Source: Rubrobacter sp. | GTDB lineage: Bacteria; Chloroflexota; Chloroflexia; Thermobaculales; Thermobaculaceae | Assembly (NCBI GenBank): GCA_016781735.1 | Contig: JADDPT010000050.1 | Coordinates: 1 to 32,417, forward strand | Length of the DNA: 32,417 bases | Direction of reading: 5' to 3' | Part shown: positions 1,703 to 27,235 of the stretch, piece after piece | Numbering within the stretch: position 1 is the stretch's first letter | How the letters are laid out: each line of letters starts with the position of its first letter | Position numbers and translations under genes: made by a program | The notes under the pieces: model-generated | What the model saw: only the letters and a program-made list of their open reading frames with translations | Databases searched by the model: none | Told to the model about the DNA's origin: nothing

Positions 1703-3826
1703 CTATCCCCCGATGAAGAGCGGCGCCAGTACGAGCGTAATCGTCGCGAGCAGCTTGATGAGTACGTGAAGGGACGGCCCCGCCGTGTCCTTGAACGGAT
1801 CACCCACGGTGTCACCGACGACCGCAGCGGCGTGCGTGAGGCTGCCTTTGGCCACCGGCTCGCCCTTCTCATCCAGCAACCCGCCGCTCTCGATAAGCTT
1901 CTTCGCATTGTCCCAGGCGCCACCGCCGTTGTTCATCACGAGCGCGAGCAGGATACCCGTCATCGTGCCGACGATGAGCATCGCCGCTACCGCCTCGGCG
2001 CGCAGCACGAGGCCGACGACGACAGGGGCGGAGACTGCCAGCAGGCCCGGCAGCATCATCTCTCGGAGGGCGGCGCGGGTGCTGATGTCGACCGCGCGCG
2101 CGTAGTCAGGTCGAACGGTCCCCGCCATGATGCCCGGGTTCGACCGGAACTGGCGGCGGACCTCCTCGATCATGTCGCCAGCCGCGCGCCCGACGGCCCG
2201 GATAGCGAGGGAGGAGAAGAGGAACACGAGCATCGCGCCCAGGAAGCCGCCGATGAAGACCTCCATCTTCGCGAGGTTGACACCGGTCTCTAGGAGGTCC
2301 GCCTCCTGGAGGTAGGCGCTGAACAGTAGGAAGGCGGCCAGAGCCGCAGAGCCAATCGCGTAGCCCTTGGTGAGTGCCTTGGTGGTGTTGCCGACGGAGT
2401 CAAGGGCGTCGGTTCGCGCGCGCACGTCCTCGGGCTGGTTGCTCATCTCCGCCACACCGCCGGCGTTGTCGGTGATGGGGCCAAACACGTCCATTGCGAG
2501 CACGTAGGCAGCGCTCATCAGCATACCCATCGTCGCCACTGCGGTCCCGTACACGCCATTGATGAAAGCACTGTCGGTCAGTGCCGACTGCACGCCTGCG
2601 TAGTACGCAGCACCGAGTGCCACCGAGATCACCAGTGCCGGCATGGCTGTGTTCTCGAAACCTATGGAAAGACCGGAGATGATGTTAGTCGCCGGGCCAG
2701 TGCGGGACGCTTCCGCGATGTTCTTGACCGGGCGATACGTTGTCGCGGTGTAGTACTGCGTGATAAGCAGGAAGAGGAAGGAGGTAGCTATGCCGACAAG
2801 ACCTGCCGCGAAGAGCCACAGCTCTCCGTCAAGCATTAGCATGATAGCGGCGAGAAGTCCAATAACCGATAGGACGGCCGTGACAGCGAAGCCACGGTTC
2901 AGTGCTGCCATTGGGTCGCTGTTCTCGTTCGGCCGTACTGTGAGCACACCGATAATGGAGGCGAGCAGACCGATGGAGCCTACGACAAGCGAGAACAGGA
3001 TATACGACGGGTTCTGGGAGCCTGCCGCCCCAAGGATCGCCGCGCCGAGGATCATCGCTCCGATGTTCTCGGCGGCGGTGCTCTCGAACAGGTCGGCGCC
3101 ACGCCCGGCGCAGTCACCGACGTTGTCTCCCACGAGGTCGGCTATGACCGCTGCATTGCGAGGATCATCCTCCGGTATACCGGCCTCGACTTTGCCCACC
3201 AGGTCAGCTCCCACGTCAGCGGCTTTGGTGTAGATCCCGCCACCCAACTGGGCAAAGAGTGCGACGAAAGACGCCCCGAAGCCGAAGCCGACGATGAGCC
3301 GTGCTGCGAGCGCGGGCTCGTTCATGCCGTTGTATGCGTAGAAGATGGCCGCCACGCCCATTAGAGAGAGTGCGACGATCAGGAAGCCTGACACCGCGCC
3401 GCCGCGAAGCGCCACGAGCATCGCCTCGCCGAGGCTTCTACGAGCGGCCGCTGCTGTACGGATGTTGGAGCGGACCGCGACGAGCATTCCGATGTATCCG
3501 GATACGCCCGAAGCGAGAGCGCCAGCCAGGAACGCGAAGGAGGTCCGCCATCCCTCGCTTACATTGCTGTAGTTCTCGAGTCCTATGCCGACCACCGAGA
3601 TGAGGATCCCGATGATCACCGAGGTGACGAGAGCTATGAGGCCGATCGTCCTGTATTGCCTGTTGAGGTATGCGACGGCGCCCTCGTAGATCGTGTCGGC
3701 TATGTCTTTCATCTCCGGCGTGCCGGTATCACGACTCAGGACGTACCTTGCCATCATCAGGGCGAAGATGATCCCTATGATGCCGCTTCCAAAGATGATT
3801 ACCGCCCAAAGGACTTCCTGTTCCAT
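1703..3826 (-). CDS. hppA: Membrane-bound proton-translocating pyrophosphatase (K+-independent subtype predicted)
   Basis: 707 aa; motifs DVGADLVGKVEAGIPEDDPRNAAVIADLVGDNVGDCAGRGADLFES and GDTVGDPFKDTAGPSLHVLIKL; GNTTKALTKG signature. Confidence 0.97.
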   Translation of the reverse strand: MEQEVLWAVIIFGSGIIGIIFALMMARYVLSRDTGTPEMKDIADTIYEGAVAYLNRQYRTIGLIALVTSVIIGILISVVGIGLENYSNVSEGWRTSFAFLAGALASGVSGYIGMLVAVRSNIRTAAAARRSLGEAMLVALRGGAVSGFLIVALSLMGVAAIFYAYNGMNEPALAARLIVGFGFGASFVALFAQLGGGIYTKAADVGADLVGKVEAGIPEDDPRNAAVIADLVGDNVGDCAGRGADLFESTAAENIGAMILGAAILGAAGSQNPSYILFSLVVGSIGLLASIIGVLTVRPNENSDPMAALNRGFAVTAVLSVIGLLAAIMLMLDGELWLFAAGLVGIATSFLFLLITQYYTATTYRPVKNIAEASRTGPATNIISGLSIGFENTAMPALVISVALGAAYYAGVQSALTDSAFINGVYGTAVATMGMLMSAAYVLAMDVFGPITDNAGGVAEMSNQPEDVRARTDALDSVGNTTKALTKGYAIGSAALAAFLLFSAYLQEADLLETGVNLAKMEVFIGGFLGAMLVFLFSSLAIRAVGRAAGDMIEEVRRQFRSNPGIMAGTVRPDYARAVDISTRAALREMMLPGLLAVSAPVVVGLVLRAEAVAAMLIVGTMTGILLALVMNNGGGAWDNAKKLIESGGLLDEKGEPVAKGSLTHAAAVVGDTVGDPFKDTAGPSLHVLIKLLATITLVLAPLFIGG

Positions 3827-9242: not shown

Positions 9243-10655
9243 CTACAGCCGGGTAGTCTCCCCGCTGCCTGACCTCGTCTCAAGCCGAAGCTGACTCGTC
9301 TCTCGGCCAGTGAGTCCGGCCAGCAGCCAGTCGAGGAGCAGGCGGATGCGGTTGCGCCATGAGGGGATGTGAGACAGGTAGTACGAATGCCACATGAGCC
9401 AGGCGGGCGGGCCCGTGAGCGTGAGAGGCCCTACCTGAGCGACACCCGTCCCTCGCCCCAGCAGCGCCATATGGCCCAGCGGTCGGAACCGGAAGGGCTT
9501 TGTGGGAATGCCGTTTATTGCGGCGGCTATGGCGCGCCCAACGTACCGGCCCTCATGCTCCGCTGCCTGGGCGGTGGGCGGCACACCCATGCCGGTGCGT
9601 GGGTCAACAGACCAGGCAGAGTCACCGACGGCATACACCTCGGGGCGCCCCGGTAGGCGGAGATGGTCGTCAACGATGAGTGATCCGTTGCGGGCATGCT
9701 CGACGGGCAGGTCGGAAACGACGGAAGGCGCCGCTGTGCCGGCCGCCCAGAAAAGGGTGCGAGCGGGGATATCACCCTTGGACGTGCGCACCGAGCGTTC
9801 CGTGGCCGACTCGATCGAGACGCCGGTCAGCACCTCGACCCCCGACTCCTCGAGCTCCCTCCGCACTGCTTCTGAGCTCTTCGGGTCGCTCATAGGTACC
9901 AGTCGATCGGCTCGTCCGGCGACGACAACTCGGACAGGCGCGTCCTCCAGCCAGGGGTACTGTGACAAGAGCCCGGAGCTAAGGTAGTCGCTGATCGTCG
10001 CGGCAAGCTCAACGCCGGTGTCGCCCCCACCGCCCACGACGAAGGTGAGCCACTCCGCGTCCTCCTTCGGGTCCTGGCTGTTGTGAGCAGCTTCGAGCGC
10101 GTCTATGAGGTGGTTGCGCAGCTGCAGTGCATCGGCGGGGGACTGGAAGATGAGCGAGTGCTCCCGCACGCCGGGCAGGTCGGGCACGGTCGTCACGCTA
10201 CCTAGCGCTATGACGAGGTAGTCGTAGGGACGCGTCCCGGCCGAGGTGTGAACCTGCCGTGAGTCGAGGTCTATCTTCTCGACCTCCGCCTGCAGCAGGT
10301 GGAAGCGACGTCCTCTCTGGAACGCACGTACTGGGACGACGATGTTGCTCGGATTGGATCGGCCATCCGCGACGGTCCAGAGTAGTGGTGTGAACAAGGT
10401 GGAGTTGTCCTTGTCCACTACGAGGATGCTCGTGTCCGTGCGTGCCTCGAGCCGTTTGTCGAGCTCGAGCGCGGTGGCAATGCCTCCAAATCCCGCTCCG
10501 AGGATCAGTATGCGAGTTCCGGCTGAGTGGTAACTCTCCTCTGTCTCACTCTCGTGCGGCAGCCGACGCATACTGACCGAAGCGGCGAGAAGTCGCCTCC
10601 CGACCGCCGCGGCCGCTATGCCCAGCCCCACGATGGCGAGCCCTTTTCCCGTCAT
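9243..10655 (-). CDS. NAD(P)/FAD-dependent oxidoreductase, type II NADH dehydrogenase-like
   Basis: ILILGAGFGGIATALELDKRL, YDYLVIALGSVTTVPDLPG, VYAVGDSAWSVDP. ORF track opens at 11165, but the homologous part starts at MTGKGLAIVG (ATG at 10655) after a GGAGGT Shine-Dalgarno. Confidence 0.85.
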   Translation of the reverse strand: MTGKGLAIVGLGIAAAAVGRRLLAASVSMRRLPHESETEESYHSAGTRILILGAGFGGIATALELDKRLEARTDTSILVVDKDNSTLFTPLLWTVADGRSNPSNIVVPVRAFQRGRRFHLLQAEVEKIDLDSRQVHTSAGTRPYDYLVIALGSVTTVPDLPGVREHSLIFQSPADALQLRNHLIDALEAAHNSQDPKEDAEWLTFVVGGGGDTGVELAATISDYLSSGLLSQYPWLEDAPVRVVVAGRADRLVPMSDPKSSEAVRRELEESGVEVLTGVSIESATERSVRTSKGDIPARTLFWAAGTAAPSVVSDLPVEHARNGSLIVDDHLRLPGRPEVYAVGDSAWSVDPRTGMGVPPTAQAAEHEGRYVGRAIAAAINGIPTKPFRFRPLGHMALLGRGTGVAQVGPLTLTGPPAWLMWHSYYLSHIPSWRNRIRLLLDWLLAGLTGRETSQLRLETRSGSGETTRL

Positions 10656-10784
10656 GGTTGACCTCCGTTCCGTCTGCCGTGCACGTGCTGCCGGTAGCCC
10701 TATATTACTCCTTTCAACCTCGCAGACGCGGTGAAGAGTTGCATGACCGGAACATGGTGACAAACGGTCGGGAACGCATCCTCG

Positions 10785-10814
10785 TTGAGTGTACGTATGG
10801 CCGACGGCTATAAT
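10785..10814 (+). promoter_or_regulatory. Predicted gltX promoter TTGAGT-N18-TATAAT
   Basis: -35 TTGAGT 10785-10790, -10 TATAAT 10809-10814. Confidence 0.7.
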
Positions 10815-10871
10815 TGCAGGTCTCGCGACAGGCCGCCTGTCACCTTCAGTCCCATTCAACCGAGGTGTGTA

Positions 10872-12350
10872 TTGAGTTCCACTGGTTCCTCCCTCCGCGT
10901 CCGTATGGCCCCCAGCCCAACCGGATACCTTCACGTCGGCAGCGTCCGCACGGCCCTCTTCAACTGGTTGCTGGCGCGCCACCACGGCGGCACGTTCATC
11001 CTTCGCGTCGAAGACACTGATCGGTCGAGGATGGTACCCGGCGCGGTGGAGAATATGATGGACACCTTGCGCTGGGTAGGGCTCGACTGGGATGAGGGTC
11101 CGGAGAAGGGTGGGCCATTCGGTCCCTACGTACAATCGGAGCGGCTGGACAAGTATCACCAGCACGCCGAGCAGTTGCTGGCCGAAGGCAAGGCGTACCG
11201 ATGCTACTGCACGGAGGAGCGGCTTGCGGAGCTACGCAGGCAGCAGGAGGCAAGCAGACAGCCAACCGGCTACGACCGAAGGTGCCGATACCTCTCAGAG
11301 GAAGAGAAGAGGGCCCTGGAGGCATCAAGTCAGCCCAGCGTCGTCCGCTTCGCCTCCCCGCTAGAAGGCACCACCACGTTCACGGACCTTGTGCGTGGCC
11401 CGGTTACCTACCAGAACGCGGGGGTGGGTGACTTCGTGTGCATCAAGAGCGACGGTTACCCAACGTACCACTTCGCGGTCGTGGTGGACGACCACCTGAT
11501 GGAGATATCTCATGTAACGCGAGGCGAGGAGTTCATTAGCTCCGCCGCGCGCGACAGGCTGTTATACGAGGCGTTCGGTTGGAGCCCCCCGCTGTACGCG
11601 CACTACCCACTCATACTCGCGCCCGACCGCGCACGTCTGGCGAAGCGACACGGGGCAACTGCCGCCGTCGAGTTTCGCGAGATGGGCATAGTGAGAGAAG
11701 CTTTCTTCAATTACCTCGCGCTGCTCGGCGCATCGTACAGCGCCGACCGCGAGATCTACAGCGTGGAAGAGCTGATACAGCTTTTCGACATACCGCGCGT
11801 GAGCCCGTCGGCGGCGATATTCGACCGGGCAAAGCTGGAATGGATGAACGGTTACTACATCAACCACATCCTGAGCCTTCCGGACGTCACCGACCGATGC
11901 ATGCCGTACCTGCGGGATGACGGACTCGTCGCGGACGAAACCCCACGCGAGTACGTGGAGCAGGTAGTCGCCCTCGTCAAGGAGCGGCTGAAGCTCCTCT
12001 CGGAGGTAGGGGAGCTAACGGAGTTCTTCTTCCGAGAGCCAGATCTGTCGCTGGATGTGCTCGCGGTGAAGAAGCTGTCCGCCGAGGAGACCCGCGATGT
12101 GTTGAGCCGAGCACAGGAACGCCTGCAGGCGCTGCCCGGCTGGGAAGAGGCCGAGATGGAGGTGGCGATGAGGTCGCTGGCGGAGGAGCTCGGACTGAAG
12201 GCCGGACCGCTCTTCATGGCGCTACGCGTGGCTGTGACGGGCAGGACGGTCTCGCCCGGCCTCTTCGAGACGATGCGAGTGCTCGGGCGGGAACGCACCC
12301 TGGAGCGTCTGGCTCGTGCAGCCGAATTGCTCGCAGGCTCCCCTGCCTAG
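10872..12350 (+). CDS. gltX: Glutamyl-tRNA synthetase
   Basis: RVRMAPSPTGYLHVGSVRTALFNWLLARHHGGTFILRVEDTDRSR; LAKRHGATA (KMSKS-like). ORF-track start 10785 lies on the -35 element of a strong promoter, so the TTG at 10872 is preferred. Confidence 0.93.
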   Translation: MSSTGSSLRVRMAPSPTGYLHVGSVRTALFNWLLARHHGGTFILRVEDTDRSRMVPGAVENMMDTLRWVGLDWDEGPEKGGPFGPYVQSERLDKYHQHAEQLLAEGKAYRCYCTEERLAELRRQQEASRQPTGYDRRCRYLSEEEKRALEASSQPSVVRFASPLEGTTTFTDLVRGPVTYQNAGVGDFVCIKSDGYPTYHFAVVVDDHLMEISHVTRGEEFISSAARDRLLYEAFGWSPPLYAHYPLILAPDRARLAKRHGATAAVEFREMGIVREAFFNYLALLGASYSADREIYSVEELIQLFDIPRVSPSAAIFDRAKLEWMNGYYINHILSLPDVTDRCMPYLRDDGLVADETPREYVEQVVALVKERLKLLSEVGELTEFFFREPDLSLDVLAVKKLSAEETRDVLSRAQERLQALPGWEEAEMEVAMRSLAEELGLKAGPLFMALRVAVTGRTVSPGLFETMRVLGRERTLERLARAAELLAGSPA

Positions 12351-17822: not shown

Positions 17823-19538
<1,716 letters not shown>

Positions 19539-19732: not shown

Positions 19733-19761
19733 TTGTGAAAAATCTCACAAAGTGGTATATT
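19733..19761 (+). promoter_or_regulatory. Predicted atp operon promoter P1 with overlapping palindromic operator TTGTGAAAAATCTCACAA
   Basis: -35 TTGTGA 19733-19738, 17-bp spacer, -10 TATATT 19756-19761; perfect 6-bp arms TTGTGA-N6-TCACAA at 19733-19750. Confidence 0.65.
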
Positions 19762-19772
19762 AAGGGCGGAAG

Positions 19773-19802
19773 TTGTGGCACTCTTTGACGGCGTGCTATA
19801 CT
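19773..19802 (+). promoter_or_regulatory. Predicted second atp operon promoter P2 TTGTGG-N18-TATACT
   Basis: -35 TTGTGG 19773-19778; -10 TATACT 19797-19802; about 23 bp before the atpI TTG. Confidence 0.45.
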
Positions 19803-19824
19803 CTTTGCCTGTGAGGGAGCCTTC

Positions 19825-20058
19825 TTGGGAGTAGACCGCTCTACATTGCGGGCGTTCGCACTGGCGACTCAGATGGGGTTCTCCATCGCAGTCCCGCTGG
19901 TGGCAGGGGTCGCTGGTGGTCTATTCCTGGACGACAGGCTCGGCACAAAGCCCATCTTTCTGATTGTGGGTATTCTTCTCGGCCTGGTACTTGCTACCTT
20001 CACACTCTACAAACTCGTCTCTTTCCGCACGTCGAGGGACAGCAGGAACGGAACGTAA
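19825..20058 (+). CDS. atpI: AtpZ/AtpI family protein
   Basis: 77 aa, two TM helices, VPLVAGVAGGLFLDDRLGTKPIFLIVGILLGLVLATFTLYKLV; first gene of atp operon; TTG start. Confidence 0.85.
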   Translation: MGVDRSTLRAFALATQMGFSIAVPLVAGVAGGLFLDDRLGTKPIFLIVGILLGLVLATFTLYKLVSFRTSRDSRNGT

Positions 20059-20085: not shown

Positions 20086-21045
20086 ATGTCACTAACGACC
20101 GCTTACCTGGGCCTTGTCAACTCGCCCGTAGGACGCATCCTCCTCCAGGAGGAAGAGGGCGAGGATACTCTACTCGGAACCCCGTATCACAGGCCCGGGC
20201 CGGCGCCCGAAGAGTTGTTCACCATCGGCCCCCTGCACATCACAAACTCGATGCTCACGACGGTGCTGGTGGTGCTGCTCGTCTCCGCACTGGCCTTCTG
20301 GATGTCGCGTGGCTTGAAGCTGATTCCGGGCAGGCGGCAGAACCTCCTGGAGAGCGTAATCGAAGGGCTGCTCGGCCTAGTTGAGGGAGCGGCTGGCAGG
20401 CGGGTCGGACGCATAATCTTCCCGCTGATCGGCACCCTCTTCATATACATCCTAGTAGCCAACTGGTTCGCACTGCTACCCGGAATAGGCACGATCACGT
20501 GGCACACCCACGGTCACGATTACCCGCTGCTGCGAGCGCCTAACGCGGACTACAACATGACACTGGCGATGGCGCTGCTGACGATAGTGATAGTGCAGGT
20601 CGCCGGCTTTGCCGCTCACGGCTTCTTTGGTCACCTGAAGGAGTACTTCATCAAGACCGGTCCGGTGCGCATATTGCCGAATCCGCTCACCATCATCGAC
20701 GAGTTCGCGCGGGTACTCTCGCTCTCCGTGCGACTCTTCGCGAACGTGTTCGCGGGCGAGGTGCTGGTGACCGTGATGCTCGCGTTGTCGTATGTCGCGG
20801 TCACCACGTTTATCGGGTTCTTCTTCGCCGCTGCCGTCCCGTCGCTGTTCCTTGCGTTGGAGATATTCTTCGGTTTGATCCAGGCGCTGGTGTTCGCGCT
20901 CCTCTCTCTCATCTACATCACTCTCGCGGTAGGGGGACACGGCGACGACCACGGTGCGGATCACTCGACGGAGGAGTACGCCGCCGGCACCGAGCACATG
21001 GATACACGCACGCCCATCATGCAGGAGCGTATTCCGGGGACGTAA
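20086..21045 (+). CDS. atpB: F0F1 ATP synthase subunit a
   Basis: EFARVLSLSVRLFANVFAGEVLV and FFGLIQALVFALLSLIYITLAV; N-terminal acidic module and His/Asp-rich C-tail. Confidence 0.97.
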   Translation: MSLTTAYLGLVNSPVGRILLQEEEGEDTLLGTPYHRPGPAPEELFTIGPLHITNSMLTTVLVVLLVSALAFWMSRGLKLIPGRRQNLLESVIEGLLGLVEGAAGRRVGRIIFPLIGTLFIYILVANWFALLPGIGTITWHTHGHDYPLLRAPNADYNMTLAMALLTIVIVQVAGFAAHGFFGHLKEYFIKTGPVRILPNPLTIIDEFARVLSLSVRLFANVFAGEVLVTVMLALSYVAVTTFIGFFFAAAVPSLFLALEIFFGLIQALVFALLSLIYITLAVGGHGDDHGADHSTEEYAAGTEHMDTRTPIMQERIPGT

Positions 21046-21096: not shown

Positions 21097-21411
<315 letters not shown>

Positions 21412-21516: not shown

Positions 21517-22131
21517 ATGTCTGCTGCAGACGCTTTACTGGGATACATAAGCTCGCCACTGGCGGCGATCCTCGCGCAGGAGGAGGAAGGAGGGGGCCTC
21601 CTCGGAGCCCTCGGTGTGAACCTGTTCTCCTTTCTGTGGCAGCTATTTGCGTTCCTTGTCCTGCTCTTTGTGCTCCGAAAGTATGCCTACCGCCCAGTAA
21701 TGAATATGCTCGACGAGCGTGCCAATCGGATACGCAACAGCATGGAGACCGCCGAGCGGGTACAGCGCGAGATGGCTGAGATGGAGCAGCGCTCACGCCA
21801 GATGTTGGAACAGTCGAGGCGCGAGAGCCAGGCGGTCATCACTCAGGCTCAACAGACGGCCGAACGCATACAGGCTCAGGCTCAGGAGAGCGCCCGCAAC
21901 CAGGCCAATGAGATCGTTTCTCGCGCGCAGGTCGAGATCAACAGGGAGCGAGTCGAAGCGATGGCACAGCTACGGCGAGAGGTGGCCGACTTGGCTATTA
22001 CCGCTGCCAGCAGGGTCGTCAGGCGGGAGCTCGACCCACAGACCCACATCAGGCTCATCAACGAAACGCTTGCCGAGAGTGGCGCTACGCACGGCAATGG
22101 CGTTCAGGATGGAGGTCGGCCCCTTGCCTAG
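21517..22131 (+). CDS. atpF: F0F1 ATP synthase subunit b
   Basis: LGVNLFSFLWQLFAFLVLLFVLRKYAYRPVMNMLDERANRIRNSMETAERV. Confidence 0.95.
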   Translation: MSAADALLGYISSPLAAILAQEEEGGGLLGALGVNLFSFLWQLFAFLVLLFVLRKYAYRPVMNMLDERANRIRNSMETAERVQREMAEMEQRSRQMLEQSRRESQAVITQAQQTAERIQAQAQESARNQANEIVSRAQVEINRERVEAMAQLRREVADLAITAASRVVRRELDPQTHIRLINETLAESGATHGNGVQDGGRPLA

Positions 22132-22657
22132 GGCAGGCGCCAGTGCTCGCCGGTACGCACAAGCAGCCTTCGAGCTTGGGCGCGAGAAAGGCAACCTTCA
22201 GAGCTGGCAGGATGACATCGAGCTGATGGCCGCCGTCTTCGAGGATCGTCAGGTGCGCGCCTACTTCGGTGATCCCAAGCGACGCGCAGTCGAGAAGAAG
22301 GATTCCGCCCGCAGGATGTTCGAGGGCAGAGTCCAGCCGGAGACACTCAACCTGCTGCTCCTGCTAACCGAGCGAGGCCGTGCAGTTCTACTGCCTGATG
22401 TCAAGCAGAGGTTCGATATGTTCGTGCGCGAGGAACTCGGTCTCGTGGTCGCCCAGGTCACAACTGCTATACCCGTGGATGACGCAGAGAGGGATCGGAT
22501 AGCGTTGGAGTTGGGACGCCTCACCGGCAAGCGGGTGCAGGTCGAGACGACTGTTGATCCTCAGATTATCGGTGGGCTCATTGCCCGCGTAGGCGACAAG
22601 CTAATAGACGGCAGCGTGCGCACCTCGCTGCTGCAACTGCGTCAGCACATTACATAA
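22124..22657 (+). CDS. atpH: F0F1 ATP synthase subunit delta
   Basis: ASARRYAQAAFELGREKGNLQSWQDDIELM ... GGLIARVGDKLIDGSVRTSLLQLRQHI. TTG 22124 has GGAGGT 7 nt upstream; ATG 22109 is the alternative. ORF-track start 21719 is inside atpF. Confidence 0.92.
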   Translation: MPRAGASARRYAQAAFELGREKGNLQSWQDDIELMAAVFEDRQVRAYFGDPKRRAVEKKDSARRMFEGRVQPETLNLLLLLTERGRAVLLPDVKQRFDMFVREELGLVVAQVTTAIPVDDAERDRIALELGRLTGKRVQVETTVDPQIIGGLIARVGDKLIDGSVRTSLLQLRQHIT

Positions 22658-22697: not shown

Positions 22698-24224
22698 ATG
22701 GCTATACGAACCGACGAAATAACCTCGATCATAAAGAGTCAGATAGCGAGCTACGAGCAGCCTCTTACGACCGTGGATGTCGGGACGGTTGTTGAGGTGG
22801 GTGATGGCATCGCCCGAGTCTTCGGCATGTCAGGAGTCCGCGCGGCCGAGATTGTGGAGTTCGAGAACGGTGTGTCCGGGCTCGCGCTCAACCTGGAAGA
22901 GGAGAGCGTCGGCGTGGTGGTCCTCGGTCCGTATACGGGCATTGAGGAGGGCGACCAGGTGCGCTCGACCGGGCGCATCATTGACGTACCGGTGGGGGAT
23001 GCGCTGATCGGCCGCGTGGTAGATGCGCTCGGCAACCCGCTCGACGGCAAGGGACCGATTCGAACGACGAGCCGCCGCGTGGTCGAACGAGTAGCGCCGG
23101 GTGTTATCGTGCGCAAGAGCGTGACTACTCCCGTCCAGACCGGCATAAAGGCGATAGACGCGATGACACCGATAGGCCGTGGTCAGCGTGAGCTGATCAT
23201 CGGTGACCGGCAGACCGGGAAGAGCGCGATCGTGCTGGACACGATCATGAACCAGAAGGGCAAGGACCTGATCTGCATTTACGTCGCCATCGGGCAGAAG
23301 AGCTCGAAGGTAGCGCAGATCGTCGCCACATTGGAAGAGTACGGCGCGATGGACCACACGATCGTGGTGTCGGCCTCCGCTGACGCCCCTGCGCCGCTGC
23401 AGTACCTATCGGCGTACGCGGGCTGTGCAATGGGTGAGGAGTTCATGGAACAGGGTAAGGACGCCCTGATCGTGTACGACGACCTGTCGAAGCATGCTGC
23501 GGCGTACCGCGAGATCTCGCTGCTGCTCCGCCGACCGCCCGGACGTGAAGCGTACCCCGGGGACGTTTTTTACCTGCACTCACGGCTCCTTGAGCGCGCC
23601 GCCCGCCTCAATGAGGAGAACGGCGGAGGTAGCTTGACCGCCCTGCCGATCATCGAGACTCAGGCGAACGACGTGTCCGCGTACATCCCCACAAACGTGA
23701 TCTCAATTACGGACGGACAGATCTTCCTCGAGAGCGACCTGTTCTACGCGGGCGTCCGCCCGGCCATCAACGTAGGGCTGTCCGTCTCACGCGTGGGTGG
23801 CGCGGCGCAGACCAAGGCGATGAAGCAGGTGGCGGGCCGCGTGCGCCTCGACCTCTCTCAGTACCGCGAGCTAGCCGCGTTCGCACAGTTTGGCTCTGAC
23901 CTGGACAAGCAGACGCGCTCGCAGCTTGAGCGCGGGCAGCGGACCGTGGAGATCCTCAAGCAGCCTCAGTACGCGCCCGTGCCGGTGGAAGAGCAGGTCA
24001 TGATCATCTACGCAGTCACCAACGGCCTGCTCGATGACGTGCCAGTCGAGAGCATCCGTGACTTCGAATCGAAGCTGGGCGACTACATGCGCTCCGCACA
24101 CCTGGAGCTCATGAGCACCATCCGCGACCAGGGAGCTCTCAATGATGACCTGGTCGGCCAGCTTCGTAGCGCGATTGAAGAGTTCAAGCAGGGTTATCAG
24201 CCCGAGCAGGCGACGGCCGTCTAG
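22698..24224 (+). CDS. atpA: F0F1 ATP synthase subunit alpha
   Basis: [51 protein letters not shown]. Confidence 0.99.
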
Positions 24225-24259: not shown

Positions 24260-26598
<2,339 letters not shown>

Positions 26599-26809: not shown

Positions 26810-27235
26810 ATGCCGCTGCAGCTGCAAGTAGTTACCGCGGAGCGCGTGGTGTACGAGGACGAGGTGGACATGGTGGTCGCGCCGAGCCTAGAAGGCACGG
26901 TCGGGATCCTGCCGCGCCACGCGCCGCTGATGAGTGTGCTGGGAATCGGCGAGCTTCGCATCAAGAAGGGTGCCGAGGAGACGCCACTAGCCATAGGCGG
27001 TGGCTTCATGGAAGTGCTCGATGACCGTGTGACCGTGTTGGCGGACAGCGCTGAGCGCGCGGACGAGATAGACGTGCAGCGTGCCGAGGAAGCTCAGCTA
27101 CGTGCCGAGCGGCTCCGGGCGGAGGGTGCGCCGGCCGACCCGGCGATAATGGAGGCAGCTCTGCGCCGGGCTCAGGTTCGCCTCAAGGTTGCCCGCAGGC
27201 GCCGGAACGTGCGTGGCGGTCAGCCAACCCCGTAG
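26810..27235 (+). CDS. atpC: F0F1 ATP synthase subunit epsilon
   Basis: LQVVTAERVVYEDEVDMVVAPSLEGTVGILPRHAPLMSVLGIGELRIKKG. Confidence 0.96.
   Translation: MPLQLQVVTAERVVYEDEVDMVVAPSLEGTVGILPRHAPLMSVLGIGELRIKKGAEETPLAIGGGFMEVLDDRVTVLADSAERADEIDVQRAEEAQLRAERLRAEGAPADPAIMEAALRRAQVRLKVARRRRNVRGGQPTP

Follow-up and report, generated by a model that had tools for sequence, protein, structure and literature searches.

A probable Rex operator at the atp operon promoter and its conservation among relatives

The atp operon and the palindrome in its promoter region

The window, as we call the whole 32,417-nt stretch of DNA that was analysed, contains a complete atpI-B-E-F-H-A-G-D-C gene set on the plus strand. 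The set begins with atpI (19825 to 20058; PF09527, 60.5 bits), which has a TTG start and a ribosome-binding site GAGGGAG at 19813 to 19819, and continues with atpB, encoding the F0 subunit a (20086 to 21045; TIGR01131, 127 bits). Matches to PF00137, PF00430 and PF00213 identify atpE (21100 to 21411), atpF (21517 to 22131) and atpH, the last as a domain at residues 143 to 310 of an ORF located at 21719 to 22657, and Pfam ATP-synthase domains were found for atpA (22698 to 24224), atpG (24260 to 25141), atpD (25189 to 26598) and atpC (26810 to 27235).

Upstream of this set, the 286-bp gap between pyrG (17841 to 19538) and atpI harbors an inverted repeat with perfect 6-bp arms, TTGTGAAAAATCTCACAA (TTGTGA-AAAATC-TCACAA), at 19733 to 19750, exactly as the initial annotation of this DNA had read it. 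Within the window, the palindrome is the sole match at zero to two mismatches, with 0.5 matches expected at that level. In the available genome (1.9 Mb, 78% complete), it is the single perfect copy, compared with ~0.03 expected from base composition, and three copies with one mismatch were detected, where composition would lead one to expect ~1.3 at this level and a reversed control pattern gave none. These three copies are located upstream of nuoA, between prmC and an unknown small gene, and inside the coding region of an MFS-type gene (L002), the last of which was judged to be a chance match.

The sequence at 19733 to 19750 matches all 12 specified positions of TTGTGA-N6-TCACAA. It also resembles the stricter consensus TTGTGAA-N4-TTCACAA of the Rex operators of Bacillota (PMC5355995, PMC13077300), with 13 of the 14 specified positions matched and a C for T at 19744 as the one mismatch. 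At the same time, the core TGTGA-N6-TCACA of CRP/FNR-family operators is present, with both pentamers and their spacing.

The palindrome overlaps a predicted extended -10 promoter (TG-G-TATATT), P1, at 19733 to 19761 on the plus strand. It is composed of the -35 element TTGTGA (19733 to 19738), a 17-bp spacer, the TG at 19753 to 19754 and the -10 element TATATT (19756 to 19761), so that the left operator arm doubles as the -35 element while the right arm lies in the spacer. Such an overlap is expected of a site from which a bound protein would exclude RNA polymerase. A consensus promoter scan recovered P1 as the initial annotation had described it, together with a second site that uses the -10 element of a further promoter, P2, whereas only 0.2 sites were expected in shuffles. 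P2 (19773 to 19802, plus strand) consists of TTGTGG (19773 to 19778), an 18-bp spacer, the TG at 19794 to 19795 and the -10 element TATACT (19797 to 19802); it had likewise been noticed before as a promoter-like pair just downstream of P1, and the -35 element chosen for it by the scan differs slightly from TTGTGG. The inferred polymerase footprint on P2 begins just downstream of the operator, and judging from the sequence, P2 is probably an operator-free basal promoter.

Rex and the distribution of the site among relatives

A search of the genome for rex and crp/fnr homologues, which the initial annotation had proposed, yielded one Rex and two CRP-type proteins. The single Rex, P0003 (G000:C10:20542-21243), contains both Rex domains in Pfam, scores 270 bits against NF003995 (cut-off 126) and resembles solved Rex structures across 200 residues (E 4e-46); both the Rossmann glycines and the winged-helix stretch are conserved.

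In the family to which the window belongs, six of the seven genomes, from four of the five genera, carry the operator at the same atp position. Also in the relatives, TATACT or TATATT stands ~17-18 bp from the left arm, a conserved P2 comes next, and the overlap between the operator and the -35 element is kept. The -10 element of P2 occurs as TATAAT in 6/6 family relatives, including the rex-bearing G002, which has no atp operator and has kept a remnant of the P1 -10 element and all of P2.

A class-wide survey covered 70 atp upstream regions, 61 of them from rex-bearing genomes, with expectations derived from dinucleotide shuffles. Among these 61 genomes, which are related to each other and do not represent 61 independent events, the motif was present in 28 at ≤1 mismatch (0.05 expected) and in 47 at ≤2 mismatches (0.98 expected), leaving about a quarter without an atp site at the latter level. 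The occurrence of motif copies upstream of orthologous atp operons, a check suggested at the outset, is hence conserved across the class. In many other families the palindrome has moved onto the extended -10 element, as in TTGTGATAGGATTCGCAA, within which TGATAGGAT is usable as the extended -10 element.

Rex is present in 72 of 81 relatives. It was found, even with the NCBIfam model, in none of the near-complete (≥90%) genomes G062, G066 and G078, and in these three the operator is absent at both atp and nuoA. In family f9, the atp site occurs in 7/7 rex-bearing versus 0/3 rex-less genomes of ≥90% completeness (Fisher p ~0.008, kinship ignored). Five further rex-less genomes, all 81-90% complete, have kept the atp site, and in these rex was likely missed through incomplete assembly. 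The motif is kept at orthologous targets and lost together with rex, as expected of a Rex operator, within a rex-less sample that is small, partly incomplete and, for the genomes lacking the sites, drawn from two genera of one family only.

Sites at nuoA, rex and other loci

The nuoA promoter of the window's genome carries TTGTGATATAATACACAA, which has one mismatch, and close variants were found in 5/6 family relatives, so that the site is present in 6/7 family members; other families have variants such as TTGTGATACCATACACAA, CTGTGATATACTTCGCAA and TTGTGCTATACTGCACAA. This nuoA operator, TTGTGA-TATAAT-ACACAA (L003:1501-1518; G000:C84:22973-22990), encloses the -10 element, an arrangement kept in the family relatives. 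At the nuoA sites the palindrome spacer is the -10 hexamer itself, so that palindrome and promoter are in a different register from that at atp. These observations bear on the question of whether a regulator is involved at all. The left arm at atp serves as the -35 element of P1, and the motif overlaps the extended -10 element in other families, so the arm could be conserved merely as a promoter element within a coincidental palindrome. We consider this very improbable because four genera of the family have kept the right arm, although it is located in the spacer and forms no promoter element, and because the palindrome is found again at nuo in the other register and is missing from near-complete rex-less genomes.

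In seven genomes of family f6, a site (TTGTGCTACACTTCACAA and variants) immediately precedes rex, at ~45 bp from the first aligned Rex codon, a position that autoregulation of rex would lead one to expect. The rex gene of the window's genome comes after uppP and has no site in its vicinity, whereas rex leads the hem genes in Streptomyces avermitilis. Two genes of the window, hppA for a proton-pumping pyrophosphatase (1703 to 3826) and a gene for an NDH-2-type oxidoreductase (9243 to 11165), are homologues of S. avermitilis Rex targets and, unlike these, have no site at ≤2 mismatches.

Additional sites were observed elsewhere. The prmC-adjacent site (L004:1501-1909; G000:C136) is located between prmC and a small gene (MGKLRILSKLGD...) without a Pfam match, next to which a second unknown gene follows in L004, and three genera of the family show this site (L004, L083 and L076). 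Two genomes belonging to one genus, G006 and G005, have a perfect motif copy ~200 bp in front of a sigma-70 factor gene (L071:1501-1518 and L073:1501-1518). In G004, for which the scan showed no enrichment of the one-mismatch pattern over the control (6 versus 6), a one-mismatch site (L156:1070-1087) precedes by ~180 bp a gene for a multihaem cytochrome, close to which there is an NrfD-type gene. The operon of these two genes resembles alternative complex III; its homologues in G001, G002 and G003 have no nearby site at ≤2 mismatches, and no homologue was found in the window's genome.

Candidate regulators and predicted mode of action

With an operator core compatible with a CRP site and two CRP-type proteins in the genome, P0004 and P0005, one of these might bind TGTGA-N6-TCACA and control atp, via ligand-dependent repression of P1 or otherwise. 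P0004 (L006:1486-2232) has the recognition helix RETVTK, close to the RETVGR helix of E. coli CRP. The occurrence of the site was compared with that of P0004 homologues only. The best of these are found in G066 (45% identity) and G078 (42% identity), both of which have neither rex nor the site, while G060 possesses rex and the atp site, yet no detectable P0004 homologue. The site therefore tracks Rex and not P0004, which it would be expected to follow across relatives if it were a CRP/FNR operator. Furthermore, CRP sites prefer an A before TGTGA, whereas a T precedes it at 19733 to 19750 and in 86-88% of the half-sites at atp and nuo, and in family f6 the motif stands before rex itself. Control by a CRP/FNR-family regulator is thus unlikely. 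The initial annotation had left the choice between Rex and CRP/FNR open; the sequence indeed fits both cores, but the occurrence across relatives and the flanking base favor Rex.

We therefore regard it as highly probable that the palindrome is a Rex operator, at which Rex blocks P1 at low NADH/NAD+, with P2 giving basal atp expression. By analogy with characterised Rex proteins, a Rex dimer would occupy 19733 to 19750 at low NADH/NAD+ and keep RNA polymerase off P1, whose -35 element is the left operator arm. Upon accumulation of NADH, Rex would bind NADH and leave the operator, and the freed P1 would supplement the basal atpIBEFHAGDC transcription provided by P2, which appears from its sequence to be Rex-independent. 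The nuo promoter, where the operator brackets the -10 element, is very probably a further target of this Rex, and therefore complex I and the ATP synthase would rise together when reductant is plentiful. The overlap from which the initial annotation had suggested repression, and Rex control of energy genes, is conserved; the repression itself is a prediction from this geometry and from Streptomyces.

A different mode of action would be activation of P2 from upstream by the bound protein, rather than repression of P1. The site ends just upstream of the expected polymerase position on P2, ~67 bp before the inferred P2 start, which would suit an activator. Nevertheless, P1 is conserved along with the site, the overlap with the -10 element at nuo and in other families is compatible with repression, and the Rex of S. 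avermitilis is a repressor of atp (PMC5355995), so that we hold activation to be highly improbable.

The predicted repression of P1 by Rex closely resembles the S. avermitilis system. There, Rex represses atp, nuo, cyd and rex-hem, its binding is weakened by NADH, and its footprint on atpI extends from -50 to -22 over TTGTGATACGGTTCACGA, with an operator that is located between the -35 and -10 elements and takes in the -35 element (PMC5355995). The operon, atpIBEFHAGDC, the 18-bp motif class and the operator position are the same in the window, and nuo, a target there (PMC5355995), is very probably one here as well; the differences are that the window belongs to another bacterial class and has a second promoter downstream of the operator. 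In Bacillota, Rex controls mostly fermentation, ldh and cyd genes (PMC5355995, PMC13077300), unlike the ATP synthase and complex I predicted here for the window's genome.

With Rex control of atp already known in Streptomyces, the window very probably represents a well-supported, fairly ordinary extension of it. It was less to be expected that a core of atp plus nuo would recur across another class and that operator and -10 element would frequently be fused. A class-wide respiratory core Rex regulon of ATP synthase and complex I might exist, with the operator often fused to the promoter such that the -10 element is the palindrome spacer (TTGTGA-TATAAT-TCACAA) and with the uncharacterised gene pair next to prmC as a further redox-linked target in the window's family, a proposal for which we judge the chances to be evenly balanced. 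The analysis carries the probable reach of Rex control over ATP synthase and complex I beyond Streptomyces into another class, apparently within the Chloroflexota, much of which is known only from assembled genomes, and provides an operator, a regulator and a set of targets that lend themselves to direct testing. Control of the respiratory chain in response to NADH thus seems to be more common than the cases characterised so far would indicate.
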